This document shows, one piece after another, positions 37,860 through 51,794 of a stretch of 64,000 bases of DNA. The notes under the pieces were generated by a model. The model saw nothing but the letters and a program-made list of their open reading frames with translations, was not told the origin of the DNA and searched no databases. The position numbers and the translations under genes are program-made. The stretch is from Caldisericota bacterium. Its GTDB lineage: Bacteria; Caldisericota; JANLFM01. Numbering within the stretch: the stretch's first letter is position 1; the number at the start of each line of letters is the position of its first letter. The stretch is from the NCBI GenBank assembly GCA_024655865.1, contig JANLFM010000002.1, positions 108,981-172,980 of the forward strand, read 5' to 3'.

Positions 37860-38582
37860 TTATCGATTTGTGATCCTTGTTTTCTCAGGTGGCTTAAAAT
37901 AAGTAAGACGGCTTTGCTTTAAGCCCATGGCAATGCAGGTTTCCAGCATCTTCAATGCGGCAAAAGCAGGATCAATAACGGGAACATCGAAACCTTCTTT
38001 AAGAAGTCTCTTTTGAACAGAAGATGCAATGCCCACCATTCCGGTGCAACCGAGAATAAAGACGTGGGGATCATCCTCCCGTATCGCCCTTAAGCATTGC
38101 TCTAAGATAGCCTCTTCTGACCTCCGTTTATCATTCAGCTCCAGCACGGGGATGTTCACCGGGCGAATACTTACCACTTTTTCCGAGAGACCGTTCTCAG
38201 AGACCTGATTGCGCAAAATAGGGACAAGCCCTTGAAGCACTGTTATTATCGTCATTCTCTGTCCCAGTGCTGCCCCTAAAAACATGGAAGGCTGAAAAGC
38301 CCCGAAAACCGGAATATCCACAAGCTCCCTGGCTGCTCTCACCCCTGGATCTCCGAAGCAGTCAATAAATATTCCCTGGAAGCCATCACCTTCTGCCTTT
38401 TGCACTTTTTCCAAGATGTAAGGGACAGCAATTGAAACATCGTATTCGCTTTCTATAGAGGCTGGCCCAAAGGCAATCTTTTCCACGCTTAATTCTGTTC
38501 CCGGGTTTACAAAGGGCTGGAGATCTTGAAGGACTTCAACTTCTGAGAGATCAATTATTGGTTCAATCACCTTTATTTTCAT
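37860..38582 (-). CDS. Asp/Glu/hydantoin racemase-family protein (paralogue A)
   Basis: The 240-residue protein belongs to the two-cysteine racemase superfamily (hydantoin racemase, Asp/Glu racemase, maleate isomerase). The first Cys is in GIFIDCFGDPGVRAARE and the second in FILGCTGMVG, both in the expected motifs. It begins MKIKVIEPI with a Shine-Dalgarno sequence (aaggcggt) before the ATG at 38582; the extra upstream residues in the longer frame are not needed. It is divergent from the M29/NicX-like gene over a 110-bp promoter region. It keeps the GCTGM form typical of hydantoin racemases, as does paralogue B at 45408. Confidence 0.88.
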   Translation of the reverse strand: MKIKVIEPIIDLSEVEVLQDLQPFVNPGTELSVEKIAFGPASIESEYDVSIAVPYILEKVQKAEGDGFQGIFIDCFGDPGVRAARELVDIPVFGAFQPSMFLGAALGQRMTIITVLQGLVPILRNQVSENGLSEKVVSIRPVNIPVLELNDKRRSEEAILEQCLRAIREDDPHVFILGCTGMVGIASSVQKRLLKEGFDVPVIDPAFAALKMLETCIAMGLKQSRLTYFKPPEKTRITNR

Positions 38583-38610
38583 CTTTACCGCCTTTTTAAA
38601 CAAATTTTGC

Positions 38611-38639
38611 TTGACTTGTCGGAGGAAACAAAAAATAAT
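38611..38639 (+). promoter_or_regulatory. Promoter of the rightward catabolic operon
   Basis: TTGACT (38611-38616), 17-bp spacer, AATAAT (38634-38639): each is a 5/6 match to the sigma-A consensus. The first gene of the operon starts at 38693. The -35 lies 28 bp from the divergent racemase start. Confidence 0.65.
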
Positions 38640-38692
38640 CTAAAAACATATTTTAACATTCTTGGACAAGGAGGGAATAAAAAGGAAAATTC

Positions 38693-39736
38693 ATGGATCA
38701 GTTTTTTTATGAATTTGAGCTCGGGAAAGCAGCAGACATTCTTTGCCGGGAGTTATTTAAATTGAAAGATGGTGAATGCCTGGCAATCACAGCCGATACC
38801 GAAAGCGACATGAGGATAGTAAACGCCACCGCCAGAGCAGCGTTTTCTTGCGGGGCCAAACCCTTAGTTCTGATCAATGCAGCACCTCTCGGGGTTAGCA
38901 AAGACGCAGACAAAGACCTACCATTGGAGGCGCTTACTGCCGTACTTACATCGGTGGATGCTTGGGTTGAGTATAACAATAAGTGGCTTTTGTACTCCAC
39001 ACCTTATGAGATCGCTTTCCGAGAAAATAAAAAATTACGCCACCTTGCACTGGCAGGGATGAATGTAGACATGATGGTGCGTTGCATCGGCAGGGTCAAC
39101 TATCCTGTCTTGCGCCAGTTCCAGGAGAAAATCGCAGAATTAACCGGAAAAGCAAGCCATGTTCGCATAACTACCCCCGCCGGAACGGATGTAGAATTTG
39201 AAAACTATCCGGATCAGAAAATTGTCTTGGAATTAGGTTACGCAGATACTCCAGGTTCTCATATGATGTCAGGGCAAATTGGCTGGATGCCTAAATTAGA
39301 GACTGTTAGCGGGACGATAGTATTTGATGGTTCGGTAAATCCACCATTGGGCCTTCTTAGGGAACCCATCTCCTTAACCATTAAAAATGGGGAGATCGTG
39401 AAGGTAGAAGGGGGATGGGAAGCAAAAGAATACGAGCACTGGCTCAAGTCTTTCAATCACCCCCAAATGCTAAAGTTAGCGCATGTCGATTATGGTTTTA
39501 ACCCTGGAGCCAGATTAAGTGGCAATTGTGTCGAGGACGAAAGAGTTTGGGGGGCAACCGAGTGGGGCATTGGGTACATCGGACAATTTTTTATTCCGGA
39601 AGGAGTGTATGCTCCCTCACATTCCGATGGCATTTGTTTGAACAGCTCAGTATGGTTGGATGAAAAACAAATTATGAGACAAGGCGAGCTGTTGGAACCC
39701 GAGCTCGAAAAGCTGGCGAAAAAACTTGGGAAATAA
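38693..39736 (+). CDS. M29 aminopeptidase/NicX (2,5-dihydroxypyridine dioxygenase)-fold metalloenzyme, copy 1
   Basis: The 347-residue protein belongs to the family that includes aminopeptidase T-like M29 enzymes and the nicotinate-pathway dioxygenase NicX. Metal ligands are readable by analogy with NicX (two His and one Asp): LAHVDYGFNPGARLSG supplies the first His and APSHSDGICLNSSVW the HSD pair. It also has VRITTPAGTDVEFENY and PGARLSGNCVEDERVWG. The protein is a near twin of the product at 50751, sharing stretches such as NNKWLLYSTPYE and GSVNPPLGLL. A hydrolase acting on small amides is more likely than an O2-using dioxygenase in an anaerobe. It opens the rightward operon. Confidence 0.82.
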   Translation: MDQFFYEFELGKAADILCRELFKLKDGECLAITADTESDMRIVNATARAAFSCGAKPLVLINAAPLGVSKDADKDLPLEALTAVLTSVDAWVEYNNKWLLYSTPYEIAFRENKKLRHLALAGMNVDMMVRCIGRVNYPVLRQFQEKIAELTGKASHVRITTPAGTDVEFENYPDQKIVLELGYADTPGSHMMSGQIGWMPKLETVSGTIVFDGSVNPPLGLLREPISLTIKNGEIVKVEGGWEAKEYEHWLKSFNHPQMLKLAHVDYGFNPGARLSGNCVEDERVWGATEWGIGYIGQFFIPEGVYAPSHSDGICLNSSVWLDEKQIMRQGELLEPELEKLAKKLGK

Positions 39737-39820
39737 GGCATTTGATCCTGGCGGAAAGTGTTACGTTTAAACTTCTATCTATGTTACTATTTGTGAAACC
39801 TAATAAGGGGAAAGGAGGCT

Positions 39821-41434
39821 ATGATGAAGCAAATTAAGCAAGTAATGGTATTAATTGCGGGGCTTTTAGCTCTGGCGGTTTCCGTAACAGCCTGTGGTCC
39901 TGGCGCTTCTCCTACTCCCACCGGCACAGGCTCGCCCACTCCTTCTACTACTTCAATGCCTCAGGTTGCTGTGGTAGCGCTGCTTTCTATTCCGGTAACG
40001 GACTGGGACCCGGCAGTGGAGTTTTCAAACGGAGTAATGATCTTGCACAATGTTTATGAAACCCTTCTGCGCTACGAACCATTGGAGGATACTTTTACTC
40101 CTGTTTTGGCCACAGATTACACTCATAGCGATGATGGTCTGACCTGGACTTTTCACATCAGGCAGGGCGTTAAATTCCATGATGGAACCGAACTTAATTC
40201 CGAAGCAGTTAAATTTTCTATTGAGAGGACAATCAAGATCGGCAAAGGAGCTGCATTTATTTGGGATCCTGTCGATAAGATTGAGACGCCTGATAAATTA
40301 ACCGTTGTCTTCAAATTGAAGTACCCAGCTCCCATGGACTTGATCGTTTCTTCCGCCTATGCGGCTTTTATTGTTTCTCCCGCCGCTGCCCAGAGTAATC
40401 CCGATGACTGGTTCACCCAGGGTCACGAAGCCGGAACTGGTCCCTATAAGTTGGAAAGCCAAAAAATGGGTGAAGAGGTTATTTTGACCAAATTTGACGA
40501 TTACTGGAAGGGCTGGCAAGGTAAACATTTCGACAAAATTTACTACAAAAAGGTACCTGAGAACGCCTCCAGGCGCCAAATGCTGGAAAAGGGAGATGCT
40601 GATTGGACAATGGAACTAACCAGTGAGGACATCGAGGCTTTGAAAGCGAATCCCAATATCGCTATCGAGGTGAACTCGTCTTTTGAAAACCTGCTGGGAT
40701 TCTTCAATACAGAGAAGGAACCGTTAAACAACAAACTCGTTCGTCAGGCTCTCTCTTATGCTTTCCCTTATGAAGATGTGGTGAAATATGCCATGGGAGG
40801 GTATGCTGAACAAGCCAAAGGGCCGGTACCTAAGGGGCTTTGGGGACACGGAGACGATCTTTTCCAATACAACTACGATCTTGAGAAAGCCAAAGACCTC
40901 CTGGCCCAGGCAGGATATCCTGATGGAGGGTTAAAACTTCTTGCCACATATAACTCCGGGGATGAAACCGAGAAGAAAGTCTGCGAATTGTATAAATCTG
41001 AGCTGGCCAAACTCAATATCGAATTAGAAATCAGAGGCATGCCCTGGGAGACTCAATGGGAGCTGGCAAAAGCTACTAATCCAGATGACCGACAGGATAT
41101 CTTCTTTATGTACTGGTGGCCTGACGTAACAACCCCTTACACTTACCTGTTCAACCTTTACCATAGCCAGCCGGAAATAGTCTTTAATTTCAATTACATC
41201 AACGATCCGGAGCTGGATAAACTTATGGACGATGCTAACCTTCAGGCAGGTATTGATCGCGCCAAGGCTGCCCAGATGTTCGTTGAAGCGCAAAAGAAGA
41301 TTGTCGACGAGGCTTACGGCCTCTTTGTTTACGACAAGAATTACGTGCGCACTTTTAACAAGAGTCTGAAGGGATATAAGGATAACCCTTCTTATCCTCA
41401 CGTGATTTTCTTCTACGATTGTTATCGCGAGTAG
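39821..41434 (+). CDS. ABC transporter substrate-binding lipoprotein, Dpp/Opp (family 5)
   Basis: The 537-residue protein is a family 5 extracellular solute-binding protein. A lipoprotein signal peptide with lipobox VTAC is followed by a Pro/Thr/Ser-rich linker. The SBP_bac_5 signature is clear: YEPLEDTFTPVLATDYTHSD, GLTWTFHIRQGVKFHDGTEL, GTGPYKLESQKMGEEV and KLVRQALSYAFPYEDVV. Two ATG codons stand together behind aaaggagg; the second (39824) has the better spacing. Relatives import peptides, nickel, glutathione or other small amides. It is followed by a 17-bp perfect hairpin and then the permease genes. Confidence 0.92.
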   Translation: MMKQIKQVMVLIAGLLALAVSVTACGPGASPTPTGTGSPTPSTTSMPQVAVVALLSIPVTDWDPAVEFSNGVMILHNVYETLLRYEPLEDTFTPVLATDYTHSDDGLTWTFHIRQGVKFHDGTELNSEAVKFSIERTIKIGKGAAFIWDPVDKIETPDKLTVVFKLKYPAPMDLIVSSAYAAFIVSPAAAQSNPDDWFTQGHEAGTGPYKLESQKMGEEVILTKFDDYWKGWQGKHFDKIYYKKVPENASRRQMLEKGDADWTMELTSEDIEALKANPNIAIEVNSSFENLLGFFNTEKEPLNNKLVRQALSYAFPYEDVVKYAMGGYAEQAKGPVPKGLWGHGDDLFQYNYDLEKAKDLLAQAGYPDGGLKLLATYNSGDETEKKVCELYKSELAKLNIELEIRGMPWETQWELAKATNPDDRQDIFFMYWWPDVTTPYTYLFNLYHSQPEIVFNFNYINDPELDKLMDDANLQAGIDRAKAAQMFVEAQKKIVDEAYGLFVYDKNYVRTFNKSLKGYKDNPSYPHVIFFYDCYRE

Positions 41435-41445
41435 TTGAGTAAAGA

Positions 41446-41481
41446 CACCCTGGCGGAAGGCAGTTGCCTTCCGCCAGGGTG
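41446..41481 (+). promoter_or_regulatory. Perfect 17-bp stem-loop between binding-protein and permease genes
   Basis: CACCCTGGCGGAAGGCA is followed by a 2-base loop and its exact complement. There is no T run, so it is not a standard terminator. Hairpins at this place in ABC-importer operons commonly protect the binding-protein mRNA from 3' decay and lower read-through into the permease genes; that role here is inference. Confidence 0.8.
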
Positions 41482-41496
41482 GAAAGAAAACCCAAA

Positions 41497-42507
41497 ATGC
41501 TTAAGTTCATTCTCAAGAGACTGGCCTTAGGGGTATTAGTAATTTTAGGGGTTGTGATCGTCACTTTCATCATGACTCGTGTTGTGCCCTCTAACCCGGC
41601 AGCCCAATGGGTAGGGCCTAGAGCTACTCCCGAACAAATTCAGGCAGCGAAAAGGGAGCTAGGATTAGACCAACCTCTGTATATCCAATTGGGCATTTAC
41701 ATCAAAAATCTTTTCACAGGAAACCTTGGCAAATCACTGAAAACCCACCAGCCAGTTATTGAGGAGCTAAAAAACTATTTACCCGCAACAATTGAGCTGG
41801 TATTGCTTTCCACTGTTATTGCAGCGCTTATAGGACTCCCGTTAGGAGTCATTTCAGCGAAGAAGAAAGATCGCTGGTTAGACCATTTTTCCCGATTTTT
41901 CTCTGTGGGTGCGGTTTCCCTTCCTACATTCTGGGTGGGGTTATTTCTCCAGCTTATTTTTTACAGATGGCTAGGGGTGCTCCCCCTGGGAGGAGAATTG
42001 AGCACAAATATTAAGCTTTTTTATCAGGTTCCCCATGTTACGGGTTTTCTTCTTTTAGATAGCTTGATCACGGGAAACATGGTCATATTCAAAGATGCTC
42101 TACTTCATTTTATTTTGCCCGGGATTACGGTAGCTCTTTATCCAATAGGGCTTGTAGCGAGGATGACCCGCTCTGCTTTGCTGGAGATTCTAGGGGAAGA
42201 TTACATCAGGGCTGCGCGTTCCTATGGGCTTCCCGAGAGCACGGTGCTTTGGTCATACGCCTTGAAAAACTCTTTAGGCCCAACTATAACGGTTTTAACT
42301 CTCTCTATTGGGTACACCCTGACAAATACCTTTCTTATAGAGGCTATCTTCAGCTGGCCAGGGATTGGGTCATATATTGCTACCTCGATTCTCAGCTTAG
42401 ACTATCCCGCCATTATGGGAGTGACCATTTTTGCAGCTCTTGCTTACGTAGTTTTGAACTTAATTGCAGACATAATCATTGCTCTTGATCCTCGGGTCCG
42501 TCTATAA
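41497..42507 (+). CDS. ABC transporter permease, DppB/OppB type
   Basis: The 336-residue inner-membrane protein has six hydrophobic helices and the DppB pattern: MLKFILKRLALGVLVILGV start, VVPSNPAAQWVGPRATPEQI, RELGLDQPLYIQ, and the EAA-loop DYIRAARSYGLPESTVLWSYALKN that docks the ATPases. The ATG at 41497 follows the hairpin and a Shine-Dalgarno-like ggtggaaag; an upstream in-frame TTG (41464) would lie inside the hairpin and is rejected. It pairs with the next gene to form the heterodimeric channel. Confidence 0.92.
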   Translation: MLKFILKRLALGVLVILGVVIVTFIMTRVVPSNPAAQWVGPRATPEQIQAAKRELGLDQPLYIQLGIYIKNLFTGNLGKSLKTHQPVIEELKNYLPATIELVLLSTVIAALIGLPLGVISAKKKDRWLDHFSRFFSVGAVSLPTFWVGLFLQLIFYRWLGVLPLGGELSTNIKLFYQVPHVTGFLLLDSLITGNMVIFKDALLHFILPGITVALYPIGLVARMTRSALLEILGEDYIRAARSYGLPESTVLWSYALKNSLGPTITVLTLSIGYTLTNTFLIEAIFSWPGIGSYIATSILSLDYPAIMGVTIFAALAYVVLNLIADIIIALDPRVRL

Positions 42508-42523
42508 GGGAGTGAAAAAAATA

Positions 42524-43423
42524 ATGCGAAAACTATTACCAGTCGAAACTTTTGAGGCCATAAAACCACGATTAAAAGAGTTCAAATTAACCTTTTACCT
42601 GTTAAACCGAAATAGACTAACAATGATTGCTGTTATCACAGTTTTCTTGTTAGTACTCATTGCTATATTAGCGCCTCTTATCGTCCCATATAAGGAACAC
42701 GTCATTTCTGGAACAAATCCTCAGGAAAAGCTCCTCCCGCCCTCGCAAGAGCATTTATTTGGAACAGATGAGCTTGGAAGAGACATTTTCTCAAGGGTTA
42801 TCTACGGAACAAGAATCTCTTTAGAAACTGCTCTAGCTGCCGTTGGCTTAGCTCTATTGATCGGCGTACCCCTGGGGGCAATCGCTGGCGCCACTGGTGG
42901 AGTAGTTGATGAAGTCATCATGAGGATTACAGATATCTTCTTAAGTTTTCCTCCATTGTTATTAGCAATTCTCATCGCCGCTTTTTTAGGGCCCAGTCTG
43001 ACCAATGCTATGTTAGCTATTGCTGTCGCCTGGTGGCCCTGGTATACACGACTAATTAGAGGACAGGCAGTTTCCATGAGAGAAAGGCAGTTTGTTAGGG
43101 CAGCGAGAGCCATTGGTACTCCCCATTTCAAGATAGTTTTCGGTCATATAGTCCCGAATACAATTGCGCCGGTGATAGTCCAGGCTTCAATGGACTTGGG
43201 AGGCGTTATCCTCACCGCAGCCTCATTAAGTTTCTTGGGTCTCGGTGCGCAGCCACCAACCCCTGAATGGGGTCTGATGGTGAGCACGAGTCGCAATTAC
43301 TTTCTTAATGCTTGGTGGTATAGCATCTTCCCCGGATTAGCCATCTTCATCACTGTCCTGGTTTTCAATTTAGTAGGAGATGGATTACGCGAGGTCTTAG
43401 ACCCTAGGACGAGAAAATACTGA
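42524..43423 (+). CDS. ABC transporter permease, DppC/OppC type
   Basis: The 300-residue protein is the second channel subunit. The N-terminal cytoplasmic part leads to NRNRLTMIAVITVFLLVLIAI, then LLPPSQEHLFGTDELGRDIFSRVIYG, the DppC signature, and the EAA-loop RQFVRAARAIGTPHFKIVFGHIVPN. It ends VGDGLREVLDPRTRKY, as is usual for the family. The ATG at 42524 is preferred to an earlier start overlapping the DppB gene, because gggagtg sits before it. It is 16 bp downstream of the first permease. Confidence 0.92.
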   Translation: MRKLLPVETFEAIKPRLKEFKLTFYLLNRNRLTMIAVITVFLLVLIAILAPLIVPYKEHVISGTNPQEKLLPPSQEHLFGTDELGRDIFSRVIYGTRISLETALAAVGLALLIGVPLGAIAGATGGVVDEVIMRITDIFLSFPPLLLAILIAAFLGPSLTNAMLAIAVAWWPWYTRLIRGQAVSMRERQFVRAARAIGTPHFKIVFGHIVPNTIAPVIVQASMDLGGVILTAASLSFLGLGAQPPTPEWGLMVSTSRNYFLNAWWYSIFPGLAIFITVLVFNLVGDGLREVLDPRTRKY

Positions 43424-43435
43424 GATAGGCGTGAA

Positions 43436-44392
43436 ATGACAGAGCTTCTCAAAATAGAAAACTTAAAAGTCAACTTCCGTACTTTTGAAGGGGTTACAAA
43501 CGTTCTTAACCTGGAGTCCCTATCAGTTGCAAAGGGGGAATCATTCGGTTTAGTCGGAGAAAGTGGCGCCGGAAAGACGACTCTGGCCTATACAATTCTT
43601 AAACTTCTGCCAATCCCTCCGGCCTTTGTGGAATCAGGAGTAATTAACTTTGAAGGAGAAAACCTGCTTAAAAAGAGCGAAGGGGAGATGCAAAAAATCA
43701 GGGGCAAAAAGGTCTCCATGATCTTCCAGGATCCCATGTCCACTCTTAACCCCGTCTTTACCACCGGGCAACAAATCACGAGGGTTCTTCAACATAATCA
43801 AGGTTTGCATAAGGCGCAGGCCAAGAAAAGGGCTGTTGAACTCATGAATCTGGTGAAACTACCTGACCCGGAAAATATTCTGTCCAAATATCCCCATGAA
43901 CTCAGCGGTGGCCAGAGACAAAGAATCATCATCGCTTTGGCTTTCTCCTGCGGAGCTCAATTTCTGATTGCCGATGAGCCAACAAGAAACCTGGATGTTA
44001 CTATTCAGGCGGGCGTACTGCAACTAATCGCCGAGCTAATCAGGGAAACAAATGTAACTGTTCTTTTCATCGGCAACAACCTGGAACTGGTCTCTTTGAT
44101 ATGCGATCGAGTAGGTATATTGCATAGGGGACAATTAGTAGAGCTTGGGTCGATAAAGGAAGTTGCAAAACATCCTGCCCATCCCTATACTCTGACCCTG
44201 CTTAGAGCCATCCCTAAAGAGAAGAGAGAAAAAATCGATCTTACTCAAATTGCGCTTAAAGCTGAGGAAAGGTTAGCCGAGAAGGGTTGTCGCTACGCTG
44301 GAAGATGTCTAAAGAAAGAGAAAATCTGTCTGGAAGAGGAGCCAGCGCTTAAACACATTGGTGGAACTCATTACATAGCATGTCACCTGTAA
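43436..44392 (+). CDS. ABC transporter ATP-binding protein, DppD/OppD type
   Basis: The 318-residue ATPase shows Walker A GESGAGKTT, Q-loop MIFQDPMSTLNPVF, signature HELSGGQRQRIIIA, and a Walker B LIADEPTRNLDVTIQ. The Asn in the usual TxxLD D-loop region (PTRNLD rather than PTTALD) and IGNNLELVSLICD in place of the SHDL H-loop are unusual: the H-loop His appears replaced by Asn. The C-terminal Cys-rich tail (GCRYAGRCLKKEKICLEEEP) is the Fe-S-binding oligopeptide-transport C-terminal domain. The partner ATPase follows after 13 bp and keeps its His, so the dimer probably has one normal and one impaired site. Confidence 0.9.
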   Translation: MTELLKIENLKVNFRTFEGVTNVLNLESLSVAKGESFGLVGESGAGKTTLAYTILKLLPIPPAFVESGVINFEGENLLKKSEGEMQKIRGKKVSMIFQDPMSTLNPVFTTGQQITRVLQHNQGLHKAQAKKRAVELMNLVKLPDPENILSKYPHELSGGQRQRIIIALAFSCGAQFLIADEPTRNLDVTIQAGVLQLIAELIRETNVTVLFIGNNLELVSLICDRVGILHRGQLVELGSIKEVAKHPAHPYTLTLLRAIPKEKREKIDLTQIALKAEERLAEKGCRYAGRCLKKEKICLEEEPALKHIGGTHYIACHL

Positions 44393-44405
44393 AAGGAATG
44401 GAAAA

Positions 44406-45371
44406 ATGAACGAGACGATTCTTTCCGTTAAAGACCTGGTCAAGTATTTCCCGGTAAGGGGTGGCGTTTTCACCAAGGCACAGTGGGTTAAAGCAGTGGA
44501 CGGAGTGAATTTTGAACTGGAAAAAGGCAGAGTCCTGGGACTGGTAGGCGAATCAGGATGTGGCAAAACTACCCTGGTCAATGTGCTATTAAAATTAGAG
44601 GAACCTACCTCGGGAAAAGTCTTTTTTGAAGGCACTGACCTTTTCAACACCCATGGTCAGCAACTAAGAAGATTAAGAAAGAATATTCAAATCGTTTTCC
44701 AGGACCCCTTTTGGTCTCTAAATCCCCGTTGGTTGATCCGCAATATAATTGGAGAGCCAATACAAGTTCACCTTAAGCCACCTTTGAGCCAGTTGGTAAA
44801 AATGGTAGAGGATCTGCTGGAGCTGGTAGGGCTTCCCAGGGAAGCTGTATATCAATATCCTCATGAGTTCTCAGGTGGGCAAAGGCAACGGATCGCCATC
44901 GCTAGAGCTCTGGCCTTAAGGCCCAAGCTTGTGGTTCTGGACGAACCAACTTCTTCTATCGATGCCCTCTCACAAGCTCAGATCCTTTCTCTTCTTATGG
45001 ACCTGAAAAATAAGATGGATTTAACTTACATCCTGGTTTCTCATGACCTTAGAGTCGTACACTATATGGCGGACGAGATCGCAGTAATGTACTTAGGGAA
45101 ATTTGTGGAATACGGTGATGCCGAAGCCATATTTCAAAAGCCAGCGCATCCTTATACCCAGGCCCTTTTCAAATCAGCGCCGAGTATAAGCGTTGAGAGT
45201 GTGAACGATCTTTTCATCCTTCCCGGAAATGTCCCAAGCGCCATTAATCCGCCATCGGGTTGCAGATTTCACACCAGGTGCCCTCAGGTCATGGAGATCT
45301 GCAGCCAGAAGGAGCCGCCACTTGTAAAGATAGACCGAGACAGGCTTGCAGCTTGTCATCTTCTTAATTAA
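44406..45371 (+). CDS. ABC transporter ATP-binding protein, DppF/OppF type
   Basis: The 321-residue ATPase has Walker A GESGCGKTT, the Q-loop region IVFQDPFWSLNPRW, signature HEFSGGQRQRIAIARAL, Walker B LVVLDEPTSSIDALSQ, and the H-loop LVSHDLRVVHYMAD. The C-terminal oligopeptide-transport domain (PSGCRFHTRCPQVMEICSQKEP) carries conserved cysteines. It completes a five-gene Dpp-type importer (binding protein, two permeases, two ATPases). The next gene, a racemase, starts 36 bp later with the Shine-Dalgarno sequence aaaggagag. Confidence 0.93.
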   Translation: MNETILSVKDLVKYFPVRGGVFTKAQWVKAVDGVNFELEKGRVLGLVGESGCGKTTLVNVLLKLEEPTSGKVFFEGTDLFNTHGQQLRRLRKNIQIVFQDPFWSLNPRWLIRNIIGEPIQVHLKPPLSQLVKMVEDLLELVGLPREAVYQYPHEFSGGQRQRIAIARALALRPKLVVLDEPTSSIDALSQAQILSLLMDLKNKMDLTYILVSHDLRVVHYMADEIAVMYLGKFVEYGDAEAIFQKPAHPYTQALFKSAPSISVESVNDLFILPGNVPSAINPPSGCRFHTRCPQVMEICSQKEPPLVKIDRDRLAACHLLN

Positions 45372-45407
45372 AGAACCCTAATCAGTACTCAAAGGAGAGA
45401 CCTGAAA

Positions 45408-46142
45408 ATGAAAAAAATATTAGTAATTGACCCTATAGTAAAGCTTGAATTTCAGAAAATGGTCAAAGAGTACCTGGCGGCTTTTGAGAAACCGGATCTG
45501 GAGATTGAGATTGCCACGGTGGAGAAAGGACCGAGCTCCATTGAAACCTTTTTCGACGAATCATTTGCCCTTCCTGAAATTCTGCGCATTGTGGACGAAA
45601 ATAAAGATAGAGTGGATGCTATTGTGGTGAATTGTTTTGCTGATCCGGCTGTTCATGCTGCCCGTGATCTGGTAAAGATTCCTGTTGTCGGGCCAGCCGA
45701 AGCTTCGGTCTCTATAGCCCTGCTTCTTGGCCAAAAGTTTGGCATCATATCCACTTTAAGAAACTCCGGCCCCTGGAGCGAGATGCAGGTAAGAACAATG
45801 GGGTGTCCTGATCGCTTAGCTGGAGCCGCGGGGATAGACATCCCTGTCTTAGAGTTGAATTCCGATCCTGTGAAAACTGCAGATCGTCTGGCTCAGGCCG
45901 CTTTGCATTTGATCAGGGATAAAGGGGCGGAAGTAATAGTTTTAGGCTGTACCGGCATGGCGAAGGTTTCCCAGATTTTACGACAGAAATTAGAGGTTCC
46001 TGTCGTGGAGCCTCTTTCCGCAGCTATTTCCATGGCTGAAGTTTTAATTCGCCTCAATTTGTCTCACTCCAAAACGGGCCTCTACCTCGCCCCCAACCCG
46101 TCAAGCATTAAGGGGTATTACTGGAATGGAAAAGAAAAATGA
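45408..46142 (+). CDS. Asp/Glu/hydantoin racemase-family protein (paralogue B)
   Basis: The 244-residue protein has the paired cysteines of the racemase superfamily, in AIVVNCFADPAVHAARD and IVLGCTGMAKV. The order MKKILVIDPIVK and the FFDESFALPEILRIV segment match hydantoin/Asp-Glu racemases rather than MurI. It lies directly behind the importer ATPase and overlaps the next gene by 4 bp (ATGA). Its place in the transporter operon suggests that it racemises or isomerises the imported compound or its first breakdown product. The C-terminal 30 residues extend past the usual core. Confidence 0.88.
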   Translation: MKKILVIDPIVKLEFQKMVKEYLAAFEKPDLEIEIATVEKGPSSIETFFDESFALPEILRIVDENKDRVDAIVVNCFADPAVHAARDLVKIPVVGPAEASVSIALLLGQKFGIISTLRNSGPWSEMQVRTMGCPDRLAGAAGIDIPVLELNSDPVKTADRLAQAALHLIRDKGAEVIVLGCTGMAKVSQILRQKLEVPVVEPLSAAISMAEVLIRLNLSHSKTGLYLAPNPSSIKGYYWNGKEK

Positions 46143-46990
46143 TCCTTCAGTTTACGCTTACAGTCCCTGAGGCTAAAAAGTTAATCGCTCTGGGGGCTTT
46201 GGAGTTACCCGAAATAAAGGCGGCCTTTAAGGAGGGAAAAATCTTCCTGAAGGGAGGAAGCACTGTTTCTGCCCTGGCGGAGGAGCTCGTGGGGATCAAA
46301 TTGGGAATCTGTGGCAGGATTACTCCGCTGGGGACAAAAGGGTCGCGCACATGGCCCGTGGATGCTCCCCATAGCATTTTAATTGAGCGGGGAGTCCCGC
46401 GCTCTTGCGACGACAGGGAAGAGGAAGAAATCCTTGGGATGAGGAAAGGGGACGTTTTTGTCATTGGAGCAAATGCCATTGATGGATATGGAAATGCTGC
46501 CATGATGGCAGGAAGTGCATTGGGAGGCCAGCCGGGTAAAATCTTGGGAGGCTTGATGGGCGAAGGGATAAACGTTCTCATTCTTGCAGGTTTGGAAAAA
46601 CTGATTCCGGGAAGTATTATGGAAGCCACTAAAGCATGTGGCAGGAGAAAAATCGACCTTTCTTTCGGTATGGCTGTAGGGTTAATTCCTATTGTGGGAA
46701 AATTAATCACGGAGCAAATAGCCACGGAACTTTTAGCCAATGTAAAGTGTCAGATAATCGGGAAAGGAGGAATCTCAGGAGCTGAAGGCGCAACAACGAT
46801 GGTAGCAGAAGGAAACCCCGATCAAATTGAGAAACTCTTTCAGATAATCAGAAAGGTCAAAGGAACCAAAACAAGCGGTTCCCCTTTGAGCCTTGAAGAA
46901 TGCAGGCCTCATGGGCCCGGATGCTCTGATGACCTGGCCTGCATATATCTAAAACCCCTTAAAACGCAGAGAAAGGAGAGCAAGCAGTGA
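46139..46990 (+). CDS. Unrecognised conserved-looking protein in the racemase/DUF917 operon
   Basis: I do not recognise this 283-residue protein. It has no signal peptide. It contains Gly-rich loops (CGRITPLGTKGSRTWP, GANAIDGYGNAAMMAGSALGG, PGKILGGLMGEGINVLILAG, IIGKGGISGAEGATTMVAEG) suggestive of a nucleotide- or substrate-binding alpha/beta fold. The C-terminus carries three Cys in ECRPHGPGCSDDLACIYL, which could bind metal. It overlaps both neighbours by 4 bp, the racemase before it and the DUF917 gene after it, so the three are tightly coupled and probably work in one pathway. Confidence 0.8.
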   Translation: MILQFTLTVPEAKKLIALGALELPEIKAAFKEGKIFLKGGSTVSALAEELVGIKLGICGRITPLGTKGSRTWPVDAPHSILIERGVPRSCDDREEEEILGMRKGDVFVIGANAIDGYGNAAMMAGSALGGQPGKILGGLMGEGINVLILAGLEKLIPGSIMEATKACGRRKIDLSFGMAVGLIPIVGKLITEQIATELLANVKCQIIGKGGISGAEGATTMVAEGNPDQIEKLFQIIRKVKGTKTSGSPLSLEECRPHGPGCSDDLACIYLKPLKTQRKESKQ

Positions 46991-48093
46991 AAAAATTAAA
47001 CCGTGAGGATCTCCACGATTTGCTCTACGGGTGCGCGATCCTGGGGACAGGAGGCGGTGGAGCTCTTGATAAGGGAATCAACAGAGTGGAAGAAGCCTTA
47101 AGTTTAGGAAAGGAGTTCAAACTGGTTTCTTTAGATGAAGTTCCAGATGATGTCACAATCGCCTGTCCTTATTACTGCGGAGCAATCTCCCCAATTTCTC
47201 CAGAGGAAGAGAAAAAGTACGCTTCCCTGCCCAGAGTTAAGGAAGAGCCAGTACTCAGAGCGTTCCGTGCCTTAGAGGACTACATGGGGCACGACTTTTA
47301 CGGAACGATTTCTACAGAGCTGGGCGGCTCTAATACAGCAATGGCACTTTATGTGGCAGCGATGGCAGGAAAATACATCGTGGATGCTGACCCTGCAGGG
47401 AGATCTGTTCCCGAACTCCAGCACACTACTTTCTTCATCCACGGAGTTCCCATAACCCCTATGGCAGTGGCAAACGAGTTTGGAGACGTAGCAATTTTTA
47501 CGCAAGTGGTAGACGACTTCAGGGCCGAAGCCCTTGTGCGCGCCCTGGCCATTGTCAGCATGAATATGGTGGCAGTCGCGGATCATCCCTTAAAAGGGAG
47601 CCAATTAAGGAAAGTTGTAATTCCGGGAGCTTTGAGTTATGCCTTAAAAATTGGAAAAGCTTATAGGGAAGCAATCAAGGATAACAAAAACAGGGGAGAA
47701 GCGATAGCCTCAGCGGGTAAAGGAGAAGTCCTCTTCCAGGGTGTCGTGGAAAGAGTAACCTGGGAGACAAAAGAAGGATTCACCATTGGTGACACCTATC
47801 TAAAAAACGAAAATTCGCACGAGAAATACCATATCTGGTTTAAAAACGAAAACATTGTGGCCTGGAGGGAAAACAGGGTTGAAGTTTCAGTCCCCGACCT
47901 GATTTGCGTAATTGTTGAGGAATCCGAAAAACCAGTAACTAACCCCTACCTGAAACCGGGGATGAAAGTGTCAGTGGTAGCCCTTCCAGCTCCTGATGAA
48001 TGGCTAAGTCCTAAAGGTTTAGAAGTCTTCGGTCCCAGAAGTTTTGGTTTCGATTTCGATTATGTGCCCTTTAAAGAAAGGGGCAGAAAATAG
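46987..48093 (+). CDS. DUF917 family protein (hydantoinase-like/S-methylthiohydantoin desulfurase family)
   Basis: The 368-residue protein is a DUF917 member: LHDLLYGCAILGTGGGGALDKG at the N-terminus, ISTELGGSNTAMALYVAAM, YIVDADPAGRSVPELQHTTF, and the C-terminal beta-rich region PYLKPGMKVSVVALPAPDEW. The family was named for S-methyl-thiohydantoin desulfurase activity in one member and often sits beside hydantoinase genes. It starts with GTG after aaaggagagc and overlaps the upstream unknown gene by 4 bp. It is the last gene of the rightward operon and is followed by a strong terminator. A role in hydantoin-type ring chemistry is inference from family and context. Confidence 0.87.
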   Translation: MKKLNREDLHDLLYGCAILGTGGGGALDKGINRVEEALSLGKEFKLVSLDEVPDDVTIACPYYCGAISPISPEEEKKYASLPRVKEEPVLRAFRALEDYMGHDFYGTISTELGGSNTAMALYVAAMAGKYIVDADPAGRSVPELQHTTFFIHGVPITPMAVANEFGDVAIFTQVVDDFRAEALVRALAIVSMNMVAVADHPLKGSQLRKVVIPGALSYALKIGKAYREAIKDNKNRGEAIASAGKGEVLFQGVVERVTWETKEGFTIGDTYLKNENSHEKYHIWFKNENIVAWRENRVEVSVPDLICVIVEESEKPVTNPYLKPGMKVSVVALPAPDEWLSPKGLEVFGPRSFGFDFDYVPFKERGRK

Positions 48094-48105
48094 AACAATA
48101 GGATG

Positions 48106-48141
48106 AAATGAGGGGGCGCACTGCGCCCCCTCATTTGTTTT
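48106..48141. terminator. Terminator between the two convergent catabolic operons
   Basis: AAATGAGGGGGCGC pairs perfectly over 14 bp with GCGCCCCCTCATTT around a 3-base loop and is followed by gtttt. It ends the rightward operon, and in the other direction reads out from the end of racemase D at 48140. Confidence 0.85.
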
Positions 48142-48886
48142 AAGGAGGGTAAATCCCCCACTTTAGCATTTCCTCCATTGGGGGACTTTCGTAGGCGCAT
48201 GCTTTGCTCGTTTTCCAGGAAAATTGTTTTCTCAAGTCAATAAAGAACTCAGCGTATTTCAAAGCAGCCAGAGAAACATCTATCACTGGAATCTTTAAAT
48301 TTTCCTGTAATTCATTGTAGAAGCCGTATTGCATGGTGCATCCCAGAATAAGGACTTCAGCACGATCCTTAGTTTTTGCCTCTTCCGCGGCTTTCATAAG
48401 GAGCTTCATTGTTCTTTCGGGATCTTTATGAAAATCGTTAACTCCTAATCCTAAAGCTTTAATGGAGGCTAATTTTTCCTTAAGCCCGTACCTGTGTAAA
48501 TTCTCAAGTACTCTGGGAACCCATTTATCCCTGCCAACTATGATTGAGAAGGAATTCCCAAGAGTACTGGCGATGTGCATTGAGGCTTCCCCAGGTGCAA
48601 CAACCACCAGGTCTTTTGTAATCTCTCGCGCCTCGTATAACCCGGGATCGTAAAAGCACCCTATTACTACCCCATCAAAACCGTCTTTCTCGGCCTTAAC
48701 CGAAAGGCTCAAAATATCCCGCAGCACAAGAGTTTCGTAAAAACGGTACTCCAGGTGCTCTGGGCCCGATTCGATGCTTGCAATAACGAGTTCAGTTTCA
48801 CTGGCTTTTCCCAGCTCCAGATAGGATTTGAAATTCGGTTCTATAGGTCCAGGAACCGGATCTATAAATAATATTTTTCTTTTCAT
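48140..48886 (-). CDS. Asp/Glu/hydantoin racemase-family protein (paralogue D)
   Basis: The 248-residue protein keeps both superfamily cysteines, in GVVIGCFYDPGLYEARE and LILGCTMQYGF. The second motif differs from the usual GCTGM, since the Gly after Thr is lost, so its specificity probably differs from paralogues A and B. It starts inside the end of paralogue C (4-bp overlap, ATGA) and is the last gene of the leftward operon. The N-terminus KILFIDPVPGPIEPNFKSYL is typical of the family. Confidence 0.86.
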   Translation of the reverse strand: MKRKILFIDPVPGPIEPNFKSYLELGKASETELVIASIESGPEHLEYRFYETLVLRDILSLSVKAEKDGFDGVVIGCFYDPGLYEAREITKDLVVVAPGEASMHIASTLGNSFSIIVGRDKWVPRVLENLHRYGLKEKLASIKALGLGVNDFHKDPERTMKLLMKAAEEAKTKDRAEVLILGCTMQYGFYNELQENLKIPVIDVSLAALKYAEFFIDLRKQFSWKTSKACAYESPPMEEMLKWGIYPP

Positions 48887-49623
48887 AAAGTGATCCTCTT
48901 CCGCTCTGGAGAGGGAAATGCCCTTTTACTTTGAGCCAGTCCTATATTGATCAACGTTTCGCATAGCTTGAGAGCAGCTCGTGCCGGGACAACAACGGGA
49001 ATTCCTAAAATTTGGGATACCTCTTCATCCACTCCCAGTATTGACCCGCATCCTAAAACTATCACGTCTGCGCCTCTTTTAATCATTTCCTGGCCCAGCT
49101 CTATTAACCTCTCTTTGACTTTCTCCTTTTGGACTTCCAGATCTAAGACTGCAACCCCTAAAGAAAGCAAACCAACGCATTTTTCCGCCAAACCGTAAAC
49201 TTTTAAGTTATCCATTTCCGGAGAGACATTGGGTGGAGCTTCAGGACCTGCACTGAGAATGCAAAATTTTCTTCCCAATAAAGATGCCATATAAAAACTT
49301 GCTTCGCCCAAACCTACTACTGGGATTTTCACCGCTTCCTTTGCTGCCTGGAGGCCTGGATCAGCGGTACAGTAAATAATTATCCCGTGGCAGCCATCCT
49401 TTTCAGCTTTTATGGCTTCCTCCAGTGTGAAGGGAACTGCCCAGGCTTCGTCATAAGCGGTCTCTATGGATTCAATTCCCTTTTTTAAGCTTACGATCTC
49501 CAAAACCGTATTTTGTTCCCGGTATTTTTCGAGCTCTTCCTGAATAACTTGATTCCACATTTCCGTGGTCACTGGAACAATCACTCGGATTCTCTTACTG
49601 GAGCTGCAATTTGTGCGGGTCAT
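48883..49623 (-). CDS. Asp/Glu/hydantoin racemase-family protein (paralogue C)
   Basis: The 246-residue protein has first-Cys motif GIIIYCTADPGLQAAKE and second-Cys motif IVLGCGSILGV. The second reads GCGS instead of GCTG, the strongest departure among the four copies here. It begins RIRVIVPVTTEMWNQVI after a short hydrophilic lead. A good Shine-Dalgarno site (ggaggggc) precedes the ATG. It follows the M20 gene by 4 bp and overlaps paralogue D, so the two racemases are translated together and might form a heteromer or act in sequence. Confidence 0.86.
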   Translation of the reverse strand: MTRTNCSSSKRIRVIVPVTTEMWNQVIQEELEKYREQNTVLEIVSLKKGIESIETAYDEAWAVPFTLEEAIKAEKDGCHGIIIYCTADPGLQAAKEAVKIPVVGLGEASFYMASLLGRKFCILSAGPEAPPNVSPEMDNLKVYGLAEKCVGLLSLGVAVLDLEVQKEKVKERLIELGQEMIKRGADVIVLGCGSILGVDEEVSQILGIPVVVPARAALKLCETLINIGLAQSKRAFPSPERKRITL

Positions 49624-49627
49624 ATTA

Positions 49628-50731
49628 TTAGCCCCTCCTTCCGGATGAAGAACAACACTCTTTAAAAATAGCGTGGAGAATCAGGACCGCCTTTTTCATC
49701 TCCTCCACAGGGATATATTCCTCCTTGGAGTGCTCAGCTTGAACTCCAACTCCCAGGACGACTGTCTCTATCCCCTTTTCGTTGTAGATGGAGGCATCGG
49801 TCCCTCCAACTATGGGGAAAACTTTTGGGGTCAAATTTACTGACTCTATGGCTTTTTTTGCTATGCGTACAACTTCCGCGTCCGAAGGAATCATGGAGGC
49901 TTTCGTCTCCAGATCAAGTTTAATGTTCACTTTAGCTCCGGAGATTTTTCCCACAGCTTCGAAGGTTTCCTTGATCTTCTGGCTCTCTTTGAGACACTTT
50001 TCGTGGTTTAGGCTGCGGCATTCCGCCATGATGGTTACCTTTTCCGGTACTCCATTGCGAATTTCCCCTCCCCTGATCACTCCGATGTTGGAAGTGGTCT
50101 CAGGATCAATCCTCCCGTCCCGGAGCATGGCTATGGCATAACTGGCCACTTTTATGGCAGAAATTCCTTTCTCCGGCTCCATTCCTGCATGTGCTGCTTT
50201 CCCGGTGATCTCAATATCGATGTTCATGTAAGAAGGGCCGCCAATAACAACTTCGTCGAGATTAGAGGAATCGAGAAGAAAGCCTTTCCTTGCTTGAAGC
50301 TGGGTGACATCCACGTGCCTTGCTCCCACTAACCCGATTTCCTCTTCCCTGGTAACTACAATTTCTAAAGGAGGATGAACCTCTGCTGTTAAAATCGCTT
50401 CCAGTAATTCGGCAATTCCCGCCTTGTCATCGCCCCCTAAAATGGTGTCCCCCTGGGAGCGAATTATGCCGTTTTCCAAGATTGGTTGGATTCCCTTGCC
50501 TGGTTTTACAGTATCCGCATGAGCACCAAACAGAATCGTGGGGCAATCCGAGCAGCTCTTTCCAGGTATTTTCGCTATTAAATTTCCATAACTGTCTATT
50601 GTGCAAGTAGCCTTGAGCTCGGTTTGGAAGCGACCCTTAAGGTAATTAATGAATTCTGCTTCCTCACCAGATTCGCTGGGAATCTGCACCATCTTGAAAA
50701 AACTCTGAATCAACCTTTGCTCATCAATCAC
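49628..50731 (-). CDS. M20-family metallopeptidase/deacylase (PepT-like)
   Basis: The 367-residue protein is an M20 zinc hydrolase. It has the first metal motif TILFGAHADTVKPG, the bridging Asp in ILGGDDKAGIAELLEAI, the catalytic Glu pair VVTREEEIGLVGA, a dimerisation lid (GKAAHAGMEPEKGISAIK) and a C-terminal VLGVGVQAEHSKEEYIP. The pattern is that of tripeptidase T and related aminoacyl hydrolases. A GTG at 50731 is preferred because ggaggg lies 7 bases before it; the longer frame would overlap the M29/NicX gene. In this cluster it could release amino acids from peptide-like or N-carbamoyl compounds. Confidence 0.87.
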   Translation of the reverse strand: MIDEQRLIQSFFKMVQIPSESGEEAEFINYLKGRFQTELKATCTIDSYGNLIAKIPGKSCSDCPTILFGAHADTVKPGKGIQPILENGIIRSQGDTILGGDDKAGIAELLEAILTAEVHPPLEIVVTREEEIGLVGARHVDVTQLQARKGFLLDSSNLDEVVIGGPSYMNIDIEITGKAAHAGMEPEKGISAIKVASYAIAMLRDGRIDPETTSNIGVIRGGEIRNGVPEKVTIMAECRSLNHEKCLKESQKIKETFEAVGKISGAKVNIKLDLETKASMIPSDAEVVRIAKKAIESVNLTPKVFPIVGGTDASIYNEKGIETVVLGVGVQAEHSKEEYIPVEEMKKAVLILHAIFKECCSSSGRRG

Positions 50732-50750
50732 CTCAGACCCTCCTTCAATT

Positions 50751-51794
50751 CTATTTTCCCAGCTTTGCTGCAAGCTTCTTTAATTCAGTGCCCATAACCT
50801 GGCCTTTATCTAAAATCTGAACACCATCTAACCACACGGAACTATTCAGACAGACACCGTCAGAGTGAGAAGGAGCAGGAACCGCACCACCGGGAATAAG
50901 CAGTTCTCCAATATGTCCGATTCCCCACTCAGTGCATCCCCAAACTCTCTCGTCCTCAATCACATTTCCCGAAAGCCTTGCTCCAGGGTTAAAACCATAG
51001 CAAACATGGGAGAGCCTGAGCATTTGAGGATGGTTGAAACTGCGCAACCAGGCCTCGTATTCCGCAGCCTCTCTTCCCCCCTCAAATCTTACAATGGTGC
51101 CATTTTTTATGTGTAATTTGATGGGTTCTTTAAGCAATCCTAAGGGCGGGTTTACGGATCCATCAAAAACAATAACCCCATTCACACTATTAAGGTCAGG
51201 GGACCAGCCTATCTGCCCTCCTAACATATGGGAACCAGGGGTATCTGAGTAACCCACGTCCATATCTACCTTGCGCCCAGGAGCATTGTAGAACTCCACA
51301 TCCGTTCCCGCCGGAGTAGTGATGCGCATATGCCTGGCTTGCTGCGTCATTTGAGTTATTCCGGCAAGAAAAGCTTGTAATGCGGGATAATCAATCCTGC
51401 CGATGCATCTGATCATAAGATCCACGTTCATCCCCACCAAGCAAAGATGCCTTAGTTTATTATTCGCCGCCATCGCATCTTCATAAGGCGTGGAATATAA
51501 AAGCCATTTATTATTGAACTCTACCCAGGCATCAACAGTCTTCAAGAGAGCAGTTAAAGCCTCTCCTGGAAGCATGGGGTCAGCCTCTTGAGCCACTCCT
51601 AAGGGGGATGCGAGCCAAAGTACCATTGGCTTAGCCCCTTCAGCAAAAGCCGCTCTGGCGGTGGCATTAACAACCCTTTCGTCGCTTTCGGTATCCGCCG
51701 TAATCAGGAAGGTTTCTCCCGGTTTTAGCTTGAAAAGTTCGTGCGCCAGAATGTAACTTGCCTTGCCTAACTCAAACTCGTACAAAAAAGACAT
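50751..51794 (-). CDS. M29 aminopeptidase/NicX-fold metalloenzyme, copy 2
   Basis: The 347-residue protein is a near twin of the product at 38693, with the same length and the same metal motifs: LSHVCYGFNPGARLSG and APSHSDGVCLNSSVW. Shared blocks include YEFELGKA, TADTESD, ATARAAF and RITTPAGTDVEF. The ATG at 51794 is chosen because a perfect AAGGAGG lies 7 bases upstream; a longer frame to 51866 has no such site. It opens the leftward operon with the M20 enzyme and racemases C and D. One difference is AHVDYG in copy 1 against SHVCYG here. Confidence 0.84.
   Translation of the reverse strand: MSFLYEFELGKASYILAHELFKLKPGETFLITADTESDERVVNATARAAFAEGAKPMVLWLASPLGVAQEADPMLPGEALTALLKTVDAWVEFNNKWLLYSTPYEDAMAANNKLRHLCLVGMNVDLMIRCIGRIDYPALQAFLAGITQMTQQARHMRITTPAGTDVEFYNAPGRKVDMDVGYSDTPGSHMLGGQIGWSPDLNSVNGVIVFDGSVNPPLGLLKEPIKLHIKNGTIVRFEGGREAAEYEAWLRSFNHPQMLRLSHVCYGFNPGARLSGNVIEDERVWGCTEWGIGHIGELLIPGGAVPAPSHSDGVCLNSSVWLDGVQILDKGQVMGTELKKLAAKLGK

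Follow-up and report, generated by a model that had tools for sequence, protein, structure and literature searches.

The window analysed here, a stretch of 64,000 nucleotides from an uncultured Caldisericota bacterium (contig JANLFM010000002.1), carries an island of 14 genes in approximately 14 kb (37860-51794). Its gene set is not random and includes a five-gene Dpp-type importer, four PF01177 paralogues of the racemase family, two M29/NicX-type proteins, an M20 peptidase, a DUF917 protein and an unfamilied protein (UNK). Uptake and breakdown of small ring-shaped peptides is probable, because the nearest relatives of these genes adjoin cyclodipeptide oxidase (CDO) genes elsewhere. We hold it at about an even chance that the island imports, epimerises and hydrolyses cyclic dipeptides or related rings, as a CDO-less variant of CDO-type operons. 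Islands of this type would offer a concrete, testable role for the CDO operons without a cyclodipeptide synthase (CDPS): the uptake and breakdown of cyclic dipeptides.

Gene content and organisation of the island

Each of the 14 genes proposed in the first-pass annotation corresponds to an intact ORF at its claimed place, and Pfam confirmed the four PF01177 proteins, the SBP_bac_5 domain, both S-Me-THD (DUF917) domains and the M20 peptidase. The genes form two convergent operons, from M29a to DUF917 on the forward strand and from M29b to rac3 on the reverse strand, which are parted by a GC-rich inverted repeat at 48094-48139 (GAGGGGGCGCACTGCGCCCCCTC followed by ATTTGTT, read by eye), probably a bidirectional terminator. 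The rac1 gene (37860-38603, reverse strand; PF01177, 132 bits) is divergent from M29a (38693-39736). Downstream of M29a are found the solute-binding protein (SBP, 39821-41434; SBP_bac_5, 323 bits), permeases B (41464-42507) and C (42479-43423) and ATPases D (43436-44392) and F (44406-45371) of the Dpp-type ABC importer, followed by rac2 (45408-46142; PF01177, 155 bits), UNK (46139-46990) and DUF917 (46987-48093). The reverse-strand operon contains M29b (50751-51794), the M20 peptidase (49628-50773, with the true start probably near 50731), rac4 (48883-49623) and rac3 (48140-48886), the last two assigned to PF01177 by Pfam. The four-base overlaps previously taken to show that the genes work together are real, by their coordinates, for rac2/UNK, UNK/DUF917 and rac3/rac4, although they indicate coupling within each operon only. 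M29a and M29b, which had been called near-identical, share just 69.5% identity.

The SBP is 59-61% identical to the SBPs of CDO operons of Clostridia, and identities to the counterparts in these operons are 75-76% for permease B, 76-82% for permease C, 60-62% for ATPase D and 67-70% for ATPase F. In the permease B tree, the window copy groups with the Clostridia CDO-operon permeases with a support of 0.996, and across the importer trees the window copies cluster with their Clostridia CDO-operon counterparts with supports of 0.99-1.0.

Co-conservation and linkage to cyclodipeptide oxidases

Four Clostridia genomes show a single operon, CdoA-CdoB-PucR-SBP-B-C-D-F-M29-DUF917, headed by a CDO (AlbA/AlbB) pair; identity to the window counterparts is 55-82% (75-82% in the permeases). 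Its importer, M29 and DUF917 genes are orthologous to those of the window; however, no PucR regulator was seen beside the window island. Another Clostridia genome (L172/L176) has racemase-DUF917-DUF1177-UNK-AroM-M29-OPT-M29b in one operon. Sister islands in the phylum are arranged as M29-M20-CdoA-CdoB-importer-racemase. The core of M29b, M20 and racemase with an importer recurs at locus C63 of the same genome and in a further three to four genomes of the phylum, while M29, M20 and the importer recur at another locus of the same genome (C20). C63 and C20 also hold the two CdoA/CdoB pairs found elsewhere in this genome. Among 54 phylum genomes, the 6 with CdoB are also the 6 with the M29b type (p 4e-8), genomes within the phylum family, like those within the Clostridia order, not being independent. 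CdoB was found in 0 of 185 Synergistota, control genomes being likewise without a match, and the class of the Syntrophomonas genome shows one M29b match, without an island. A loose or chance neighbourhood of unrelated catabolic genes might account for the two convergent operons and for the parts found separately in other genomes, but the same families co-occur repeatedly, within this genome and its phylum as well as in Clostridia and one archaeal contig, and these counts make it extremely improbable. The genome comparison proposed with the first-pass annotation thus favours co-conservation.

In the sister islands, the best match of the nitroreductase is AlbA (8uc3, 1.6e-24) and that of the DUF6092 protein is AlbB (9exv, 1.9e-5). 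The flavin-linking Cys is kept in 12 of 12 sister CdoA sequences, in most of which AlbA S54 is replaced by G, S54 being kept in L148 and L153. CdoB residues E33, Y37 and R41 are kept in the correctly framed sister sequences (L153 was read separately), and P34 is replaced in L089, L090, L092 and L096. A 299-aa nitroreductase (L160), considered as a fused CDO, was dropped, having no DUF6092 motif. An NCS1-type permease flanks the C63 CDO island and, in genome G001 (L093), an NCS1 permease adjoins M29-DUF917-racemase. No credible CDO was detected in the window by tblastn with 12 CdoA and 11 CdoB queries, one of the latter misframed (L153); the best hit had an E-value of 0.008 over 38 residues. 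The lack of a CDO in the island and window counts against cyclic dipeptides as substrates.

PF01177, DUF917, AroM, dipeptide ABC, OPT and peptidase families were described as enriched around CDOs, with function unassigned (Andreas & Giessen 2024, PMC11055893), and 88% of CDO operons were found to have no CDPS and some to occur in anaerobes, again with no role assigned (PMC11055893). The enriched partners PF01177, PF06032, dipeptide ABC importer and peptidase are all present in the window island, which has hydantoin-racemase-family, DUF917, importer and peptidase genes in common with the non-CDPS CDO clusters; unlike them, it is devoid of CdoA/CdoB and has a fourfold set of racemases, a pair of M29-type proteins and UNK. 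The earlier statement that no described pathway has this gene content holds in that none is assigned, and no pathway for diketopiperazine isomerisation and ring opening was found in the literature searched. The content is nevertheless not wholly undescribed, because the families are already known as CDO-enriched (PMC11055893) and the importer and DUF917 have counterparts in the Clostridia CDO operon.

Racemases, hydrolases and candidate substrates

Rac1 to rac4 are ancient paralogues with 34-36% mutual identity, and alignment shows the Cys79/Cys184 dyad in all four. Best PDB matches of rac1, rac2 and rac3 are KpAllR and allantoin-hydantoin racemases (3qvj, 5lfd), with which both Cys are common; however, Asn12 is missing in the four window proteins, which have I, I, V and V (rac1 to rac4) at KpAllR position 12. 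Asn or Asp is reported to occupy this position in 100% of hydantoin/allantoin racemases (PMC12661438). As an internal control in the same alignment, the racemase of a separate amidohydrolase locus (C15) carries N, and the racemase of the G001 NCS1 locus carries D. The PF01177 fold, the Cys dyad and a hydrophobic residue in place of Asn12 are shared with NozR, which isomerises diketopiperazines between D and L forms (PMC10156859), and with OpaE (PMC12661438), although sequence identity to OpaE is low. All residues of the NozR-like diketopiperazine isomerase fingerprint (Cys dyad, Ile/Val9, Thr/Ser114, Val/Ile115) are present in rac1 (I12, T118, V119). Rac2 (I12, F17, S118, T119) and rac4 (V12, W17, S118, A119) match it in part and fit no single fingerprint, and the rac3 pocket (V131/G132) matches OpaE (V-G) instead. 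Rac1 therefore appears to resemble NozR and rac3 OpaE, the fingerprint positions having been published from a limited set and being no proof of substrate. Rac1 is 43% identical to the racemase adjoining DUF917 and CdoA/B in L153, rac3 homologues (49-54% identity) close the CDO islands of the phylum, and rac4 is 56% identical to the racemase after M29 in the C63 island.

Both CDO and NozR-type racemases have known biosynthetic roles (PMC11055893, PMC10156859), which would suit a cluster that makes or tailors a modified cyclic dipeptide, like the albonoursin or nocardioazine clusters. This is very unlikely: unlike the biosynthetic NozR and OpaE, the window racemases are encoded beside a binding-protein-dependent importer and peptidases, which suit uptake, no CDPS or NRPS gene was noted on inspection of the gene content of the islands compared, and three islands in one 1.8-Mb genome are unlike a secondary-metabolite cluster.

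M29a and M29b reached no Pfam or NCBIfam model. The sole PDB match of M29a is the 2,5-dihydroxypyridine dioxygenase NicX (7cn3, 2.2e-17), the nearest solved relative of both. In the alignment they are without the canonical five-ligand M29 aminopeptidase set, which we take to be E250, E316, H345, H378 and D380 (AmpT numbering), showing an H/E swap at two of its positions (the first E is H, and an H is E); among the aligned relatives, only L024 and the second M29 of L126 have the canonical pattern. Pairwise and profile alignments show that the positions of NicX H265, H318 and D320, presumably its Fe ligands, are kept in M29a and M29b, which have two extra acidic positions (EDER, TEWG) absent from NicX. 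Furthermore, NicX needs O2, whereas the host of the island appears to be anaerobic. No other nicotinate-pathway genes were noted in the ORF inventory of the island, and assignment of the set to that pathway is unsupported. M29b is 57-59% identical to the M29 of Clostridia CDO operons and 65-71% to that of the phylum CDO islands.

The M20 protein passes the Peptidase T-like model TIGR01883 (310.9 bits, cut-off 274.25) and reaches 54 of 520 bits with the carbamoylase model ErtE, so that the M20 family stands and the protein is PepT-like, not a carbamoylase; it is 56-59% identical to the M20 of CDO islands. Together with the Dpp-type importer and the M29 superfamily, it might suggest that linear dipeptides, either D/L or beta-linked (isoaspartyl-type), are scavenged, with racemases fixing stereochemistry and M29, M20 and DUF917 as peptidases. 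We consider this quite unlikely, since racemases of the family require an acidic alpha-H, normally one that belongs to a ring or to a free amino acid, M29a and M29b do not have the canonical ligands, and the CDO linkage of orthologous operons points to cyclic substrates.

DUF917 has both S-Me-THD Pfam domains (PF06032 and PF20906) above cut-off (152 and 195 bits), in common with S-methyl thiohydantoin and thiohydantoin desulfurases (NF058532, NF058529), but scores 91 and 88 bits with these NCBIfam equivalogs, far under their cut-offs (440/450). It is 55-56% identical to the DUF917 of Clostridia CDO operons. Its characterised relatives, judged from NCBIfam names, use S-methyl-thiohydantoin rings, which counts against cyclic dipeptides, as does the permease flanking the C63 island, carriers of hydantoin and allantoin being among the NCS1 family. 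The main rival is accordingly hydantoin or N-carbamoyl amino acid catabolism, in which imported 5-substituted hydantoins would be racemised, opened by DUF917 and decarbamoylated by M20. Besides both NCS1 loci, the presence of the PF01177 and S-Me-THD families fits it, and hydantoin/allantoin modification was favoured for such families in PMC11055893. It remains doubtful given the residues at racemase position 12, the distance of M20 from the carbamoylase model, the Dpp-type importer, and the ORFs and Pfam matches of the island, which include neither a dihydropyrimidinase-type gene nor HyuA/HyuB. The hydantoin emphasis of the first-pass annotation is weakened, because the racemases have no Asn/Asp12, M20 is PepT-like and DUF917 scores low as a desulfurase.

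Proposed route and the UNK protein

From gene content, family membership, co-conservation and conserved catalytic residues, all read at sequence level, we infer the substrate, the reaction order and the direction, catabolism being the most likely. The Dpp-type importer would take in cyclic dipeptides (diketopiperazines) or close peptide rings, the four two-cysteine racemases would interconvert D and L ring centres as NozR does, M29a, M29b and DUF917 would open or trim ring amides, and the PepT-like M20 would release amino acids from the dipeptides so formed. In the sister islands, an AlbA/AlbB-type oxidase may first introduce an alpha,beta double bond; for the window island this step would be absent or provided from C63 or C20. 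The racemases, the unusual M29/NicX type, DUF917 and UNK are thus candidate enzymes for diketopiperazine isomerisation or ring opening; to our knowledge, none of the island's enzymes has been proven to open this ring. The co-conservation agrees with the earlier reading, in which the linked genes take up a small peptide-like compound, open its ring or amide and isomerise its stereocentres. Only tentatively do we propose an undescribed cyclic-dipeptide catabolism in which inverting racemases would act together with DUF917, a hydrolase of the H/E-swapped M29/NicX type and a new enzyme with an ISOCOT fold, and which in this island would proceed without an oxidase step and without oxygen.

UNK has no Pfam or NCBIfam match, and searches against PDB sequences, with single sequence and profile, gave nothing usable. 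Its predicted structure (pLDDT 86.7) suggests an eIF2B/sugar-phosphate-isomerase-like (ISOCOT) fold in residues 7-209, with a best Z of 9.8 to eIF2B (154 residues, 4.5 A), top rows all from one superfamily and a best Foldseek E-value of 3.6e-3. Identity to the eIF2B, ribose-1,5-bisphosphate isomerase and MtnA proteins is 10-20%, without a sequence-level match, and their GADAI-type motif reads GANAID in UNK (by eye). A role for UNK in the route is conjectural.

For the neighbourhood search anchored on UNK and DUF917, also suggested earlier, UNK was rejected as a sole anchor. UNK relatives of 45-54% identity are operon partners of island-type genes in L172 and L024, the only ones so linked, while the wide UNK family (42 loci) is mostly unlinked to the set; UNK is absent from the plasmid records searched. 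DUF917 alone is a weak anchor, because its plasmid copies usually adjoin other ABC importers; those of Rhizobium and Aureimonas are found with a racemase and HyuA. M29 adjoins M20 once in the plasmid records, in Variovorax.

Organization of the island

The window belongs to a 1.82-Mb assembly of 63 contigs (96% complete). All genes that the first-pass annotation listed for the island (37860-51794) were recovered as intact ORFs at the coordinates it gave, and they form a real and non-random set. M29a (start 38693) opens the plus-strand operon, followed by the five importer genes, which encode the solute-binding protein (SBP), permeases B and C and ATPases D and F (39821-45371), and by rac2, UNK (46139-46990) and the DUF917 gene, mutually joined by 4-base overlaps. 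M29b, M20, rac4 and rac3 lie on the minus strand, with a 4-base overlap between rac4 and rac3, and both operons converge at a GC-rich inverted repeat (48094-48139). The rac1 gene stands alone, divergent from M29a. M29a and M29b, previously called near-identical, share 69.5% identity, and the description of the racemases was also corrected, rac1-rac4 sharing only 34-36% among themselves.

Pfam assigned the island proteins to PF01177 (four), SBP_bac_5, the N and C domains of S-Me-THD, and M20. With NCBIfam models, M20 scored 311 bits against the PepT-like model, above its cut-off of 274, but was far from the carbamoylase ErtE, and DUF917 scored far below both thiohydantoin-desulfurase models. 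The profile of the M29a/b clade gave 111 bits with NicX, the one solved relative of M29a, and 33 bits with PepS. Aligned with canonical M29 references (the L024 protein and the second M29 of locus L126), the clade shows His for the Glu of AEL and Glu for the His of GTAH/GTIH, at two canonical M29 ligand positions, and retains the EDE-type Glu, H310 and D312 (M29a numbering). With this swap, the clade does not qualify as a canonical M29 peptidase, and it is not clearly a dioxygenase either.

A B3/4-domain protein (PF03483, 37055-37798) adjoins the island, outside the set conserved at other loci. The window also encodes a protein that looks secreted (34213-35127), in which a copper-amine-oxidase N-terminal domain is combined with two peptidase-inhibitor domains of the chagasin type (I42), and an aldehyde ferredoxin oxidoreductase (27967-29802), which fits the host as an anaerobic amino acid fermenter; in L091 and L161, enzymes related to the latter neighbour DUF917/M29 loci.

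Relatives linked to cyclodipeptide oxidase

Contig C63 of the same genome carries genes for M29 (66%), a racemase (56% to rac4), SBP, M20 (59%), a nitroreductase, a small protein, B, C, D, F and a racemase (53% to rac3); on C20, only the end of M29 is present, together with genes for the nitroreductase, the small protein, the importer and M20. Nearly the same order is found in G050, G051 and G026 of the phylum, and partially in G053. Since their best PDB matches are AlbA (1.6e-24) and AlbB (1.9e-5), and the small protein matches Pfam DUF6092, the nitroreductase and small protein are predicted to be the cyclodipeptide oxidase (CDO) subunits CdoA and CdoB. They retain the flavin Cys and the CdoB interface residues E/Y/R, and AlbA S54 is replaced by Gly in most CdoA. 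CdoB was found in 6 of the 54 phylum genomes compared, exactly those with the M29b type (hypergeometric p 4e-8, on non-independent genomes, four being from one family). Outside the window's genome, best-match identities of the M29b type in the phylum are 50-72%; in G025, additional to the six, the M29 relative reaches no more than 25%. Four phylum genomes have DUF917, all of them within the six.

In the C20 island, the SBP reads as two separate ORFs (L096 12785-14477), so this copy may be decaying or mis-assembled. An NCS1-type permease flanks CDO islands (L014 4450-5964, PF02133; similar-looking proteins at L089 1076-2683 and L092 14636-16162), which hints at a purine/hydantoin-like co-substrate or at regulation; beside it in L089 are HTH and M78/IrrE-like proteins, and small genes resembling these occur in L014 and L092.

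Four Clostridia genomes share one operon, CdoA-CdoB-PucR regulator-SBP-B-C-D-F-M29-DUF917, whose products are 59-61% (SBP), 75-76% (B), 76-82% (C), 60-62% (D), 67-70% (F), 57-59% (M29) and 55-56% (DUF917) identical to those of the window. Trees of the importer proteins place the window copy with these (support 0.99-1.0), apart from those of C63 and C20. Among 391 sampled Clostridia, CdoB occurs in five, the M29b type in eight and both in four, all of one small order (p 1.8e-7, counting seven M29b-type genomes at at least 38% identity).

According to Andreas & Giessen 2024 (PMC11055893), CDOs are also found in anaerobes and 88% of CDO operons are without a cyclodipeptide synthase; these are enriched in PF01177, DUF917, AroM, dipeptide/oligopeptide ABC, OPT, EamA and peptidase genes, with hydantoin/allantoin modification, purine metabolism or new secondary metabolites as proposed roles. 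As the same families are involved, the island gene set is not wholly new: the earlier view that no described pathway has this content holds for the still unassigned function, not for the families, and the island is a variation on a partly described gene set lacking an assigned function.

Racemase residues and proposed substrate

The island is best read as cyclic-dipeptide catabolism. The importer would take up a small peptide-like compound, as its family supports well, and the CDO linkage of orthologues, together with NozR, a PF01177 protein that isomerises cyclo-Trp-Trp (PMC10156859), argues for a ring; linear D/L or iso-dipeptides are accordingly an improbable substrate, even with a PepT-like M20 in the set. 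Hydantoins, a role proposed for such operons, seem rather unlikely. All allantoin-hydantoin racemases of PMC12661438 have Asn/Asp at position 12 (KpAllR numbering), and rac1-rac4 have I, I, V and V there; Asp is the residue in a G001 racemase encoded next to an NCS1 permease. The diagnostic positions derive from OpaE, which epimerises an NRPS-derived ring compound (PMC12661438): rac1 shows a NozR-like T-V pair, rac3 an OpaE-like V-G pair, and rac2 (S-T) and rac4 (S-A) are intermediate. These residues move the balance from hydantoin towards larger or more hydrophobic rings, short of proof. Cyclic dipeptides, dehydro forms included, are given roughly even chances. On such a substrate, the racemases, with their Cys dyads, would act as epimerases, M29a/b and DUF917 may open the ring or amide, and M20, judging by its family, might perform the final dipeptide cleavage. 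The oxidase is absent from the window island.

A separate racemase locus of the same genome, L016 (G000:C15:4000-22653), encodes an amidohydrolase, a RidA-like protein, two PALP enzymes, an ABC importer and a TPP/ferredoxin oxidoreductase. Its racemase carries the hydantoin-type Asn12, and this locus is a more likely candidate than the window island for a true hydantoin or related pathway.

The UNK protein

Family-model searches matched UNK to no sequence family. The best structural matches listed for its AlphaFold2 model (pLDDT 86.7) are throughout eIF2B, ribose-1,5-bisphosphate isomerase, MtnA and RpiA (Z up to 9.8, residues 7-209); Foldseek E-values reach 3.6e-3 at best, which is no more than suggestive. 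The wide family spans Bathyarchaeota, Methanoperedens, Deltaproteobacteria and Firmicutes and is mostly unlinked to the island set, so the window's subfamily looks recruited to it. In a further Clostridia genome, G385 (L172/L176), the order is racemase-DUF917-DUF1177-UNK (45%)-AroM-M29-OPT transporter-M29b (57%); a PucR gene stands divergent, and there is no CDO. The UNK of G385 groups with that of the window (support 1.0). The archaeal contig L024 shows UNK-AroM-M29, with UNK 54% identical to the window's and in two overlapping frames (148-899), a frameshift, assembly error or pseudogene. In Bathyarchaeota L031, L033 and L035, a family member lies in a quite different context, directly upstream of a TruB/Cbf5 pseudouridine synthase gene.
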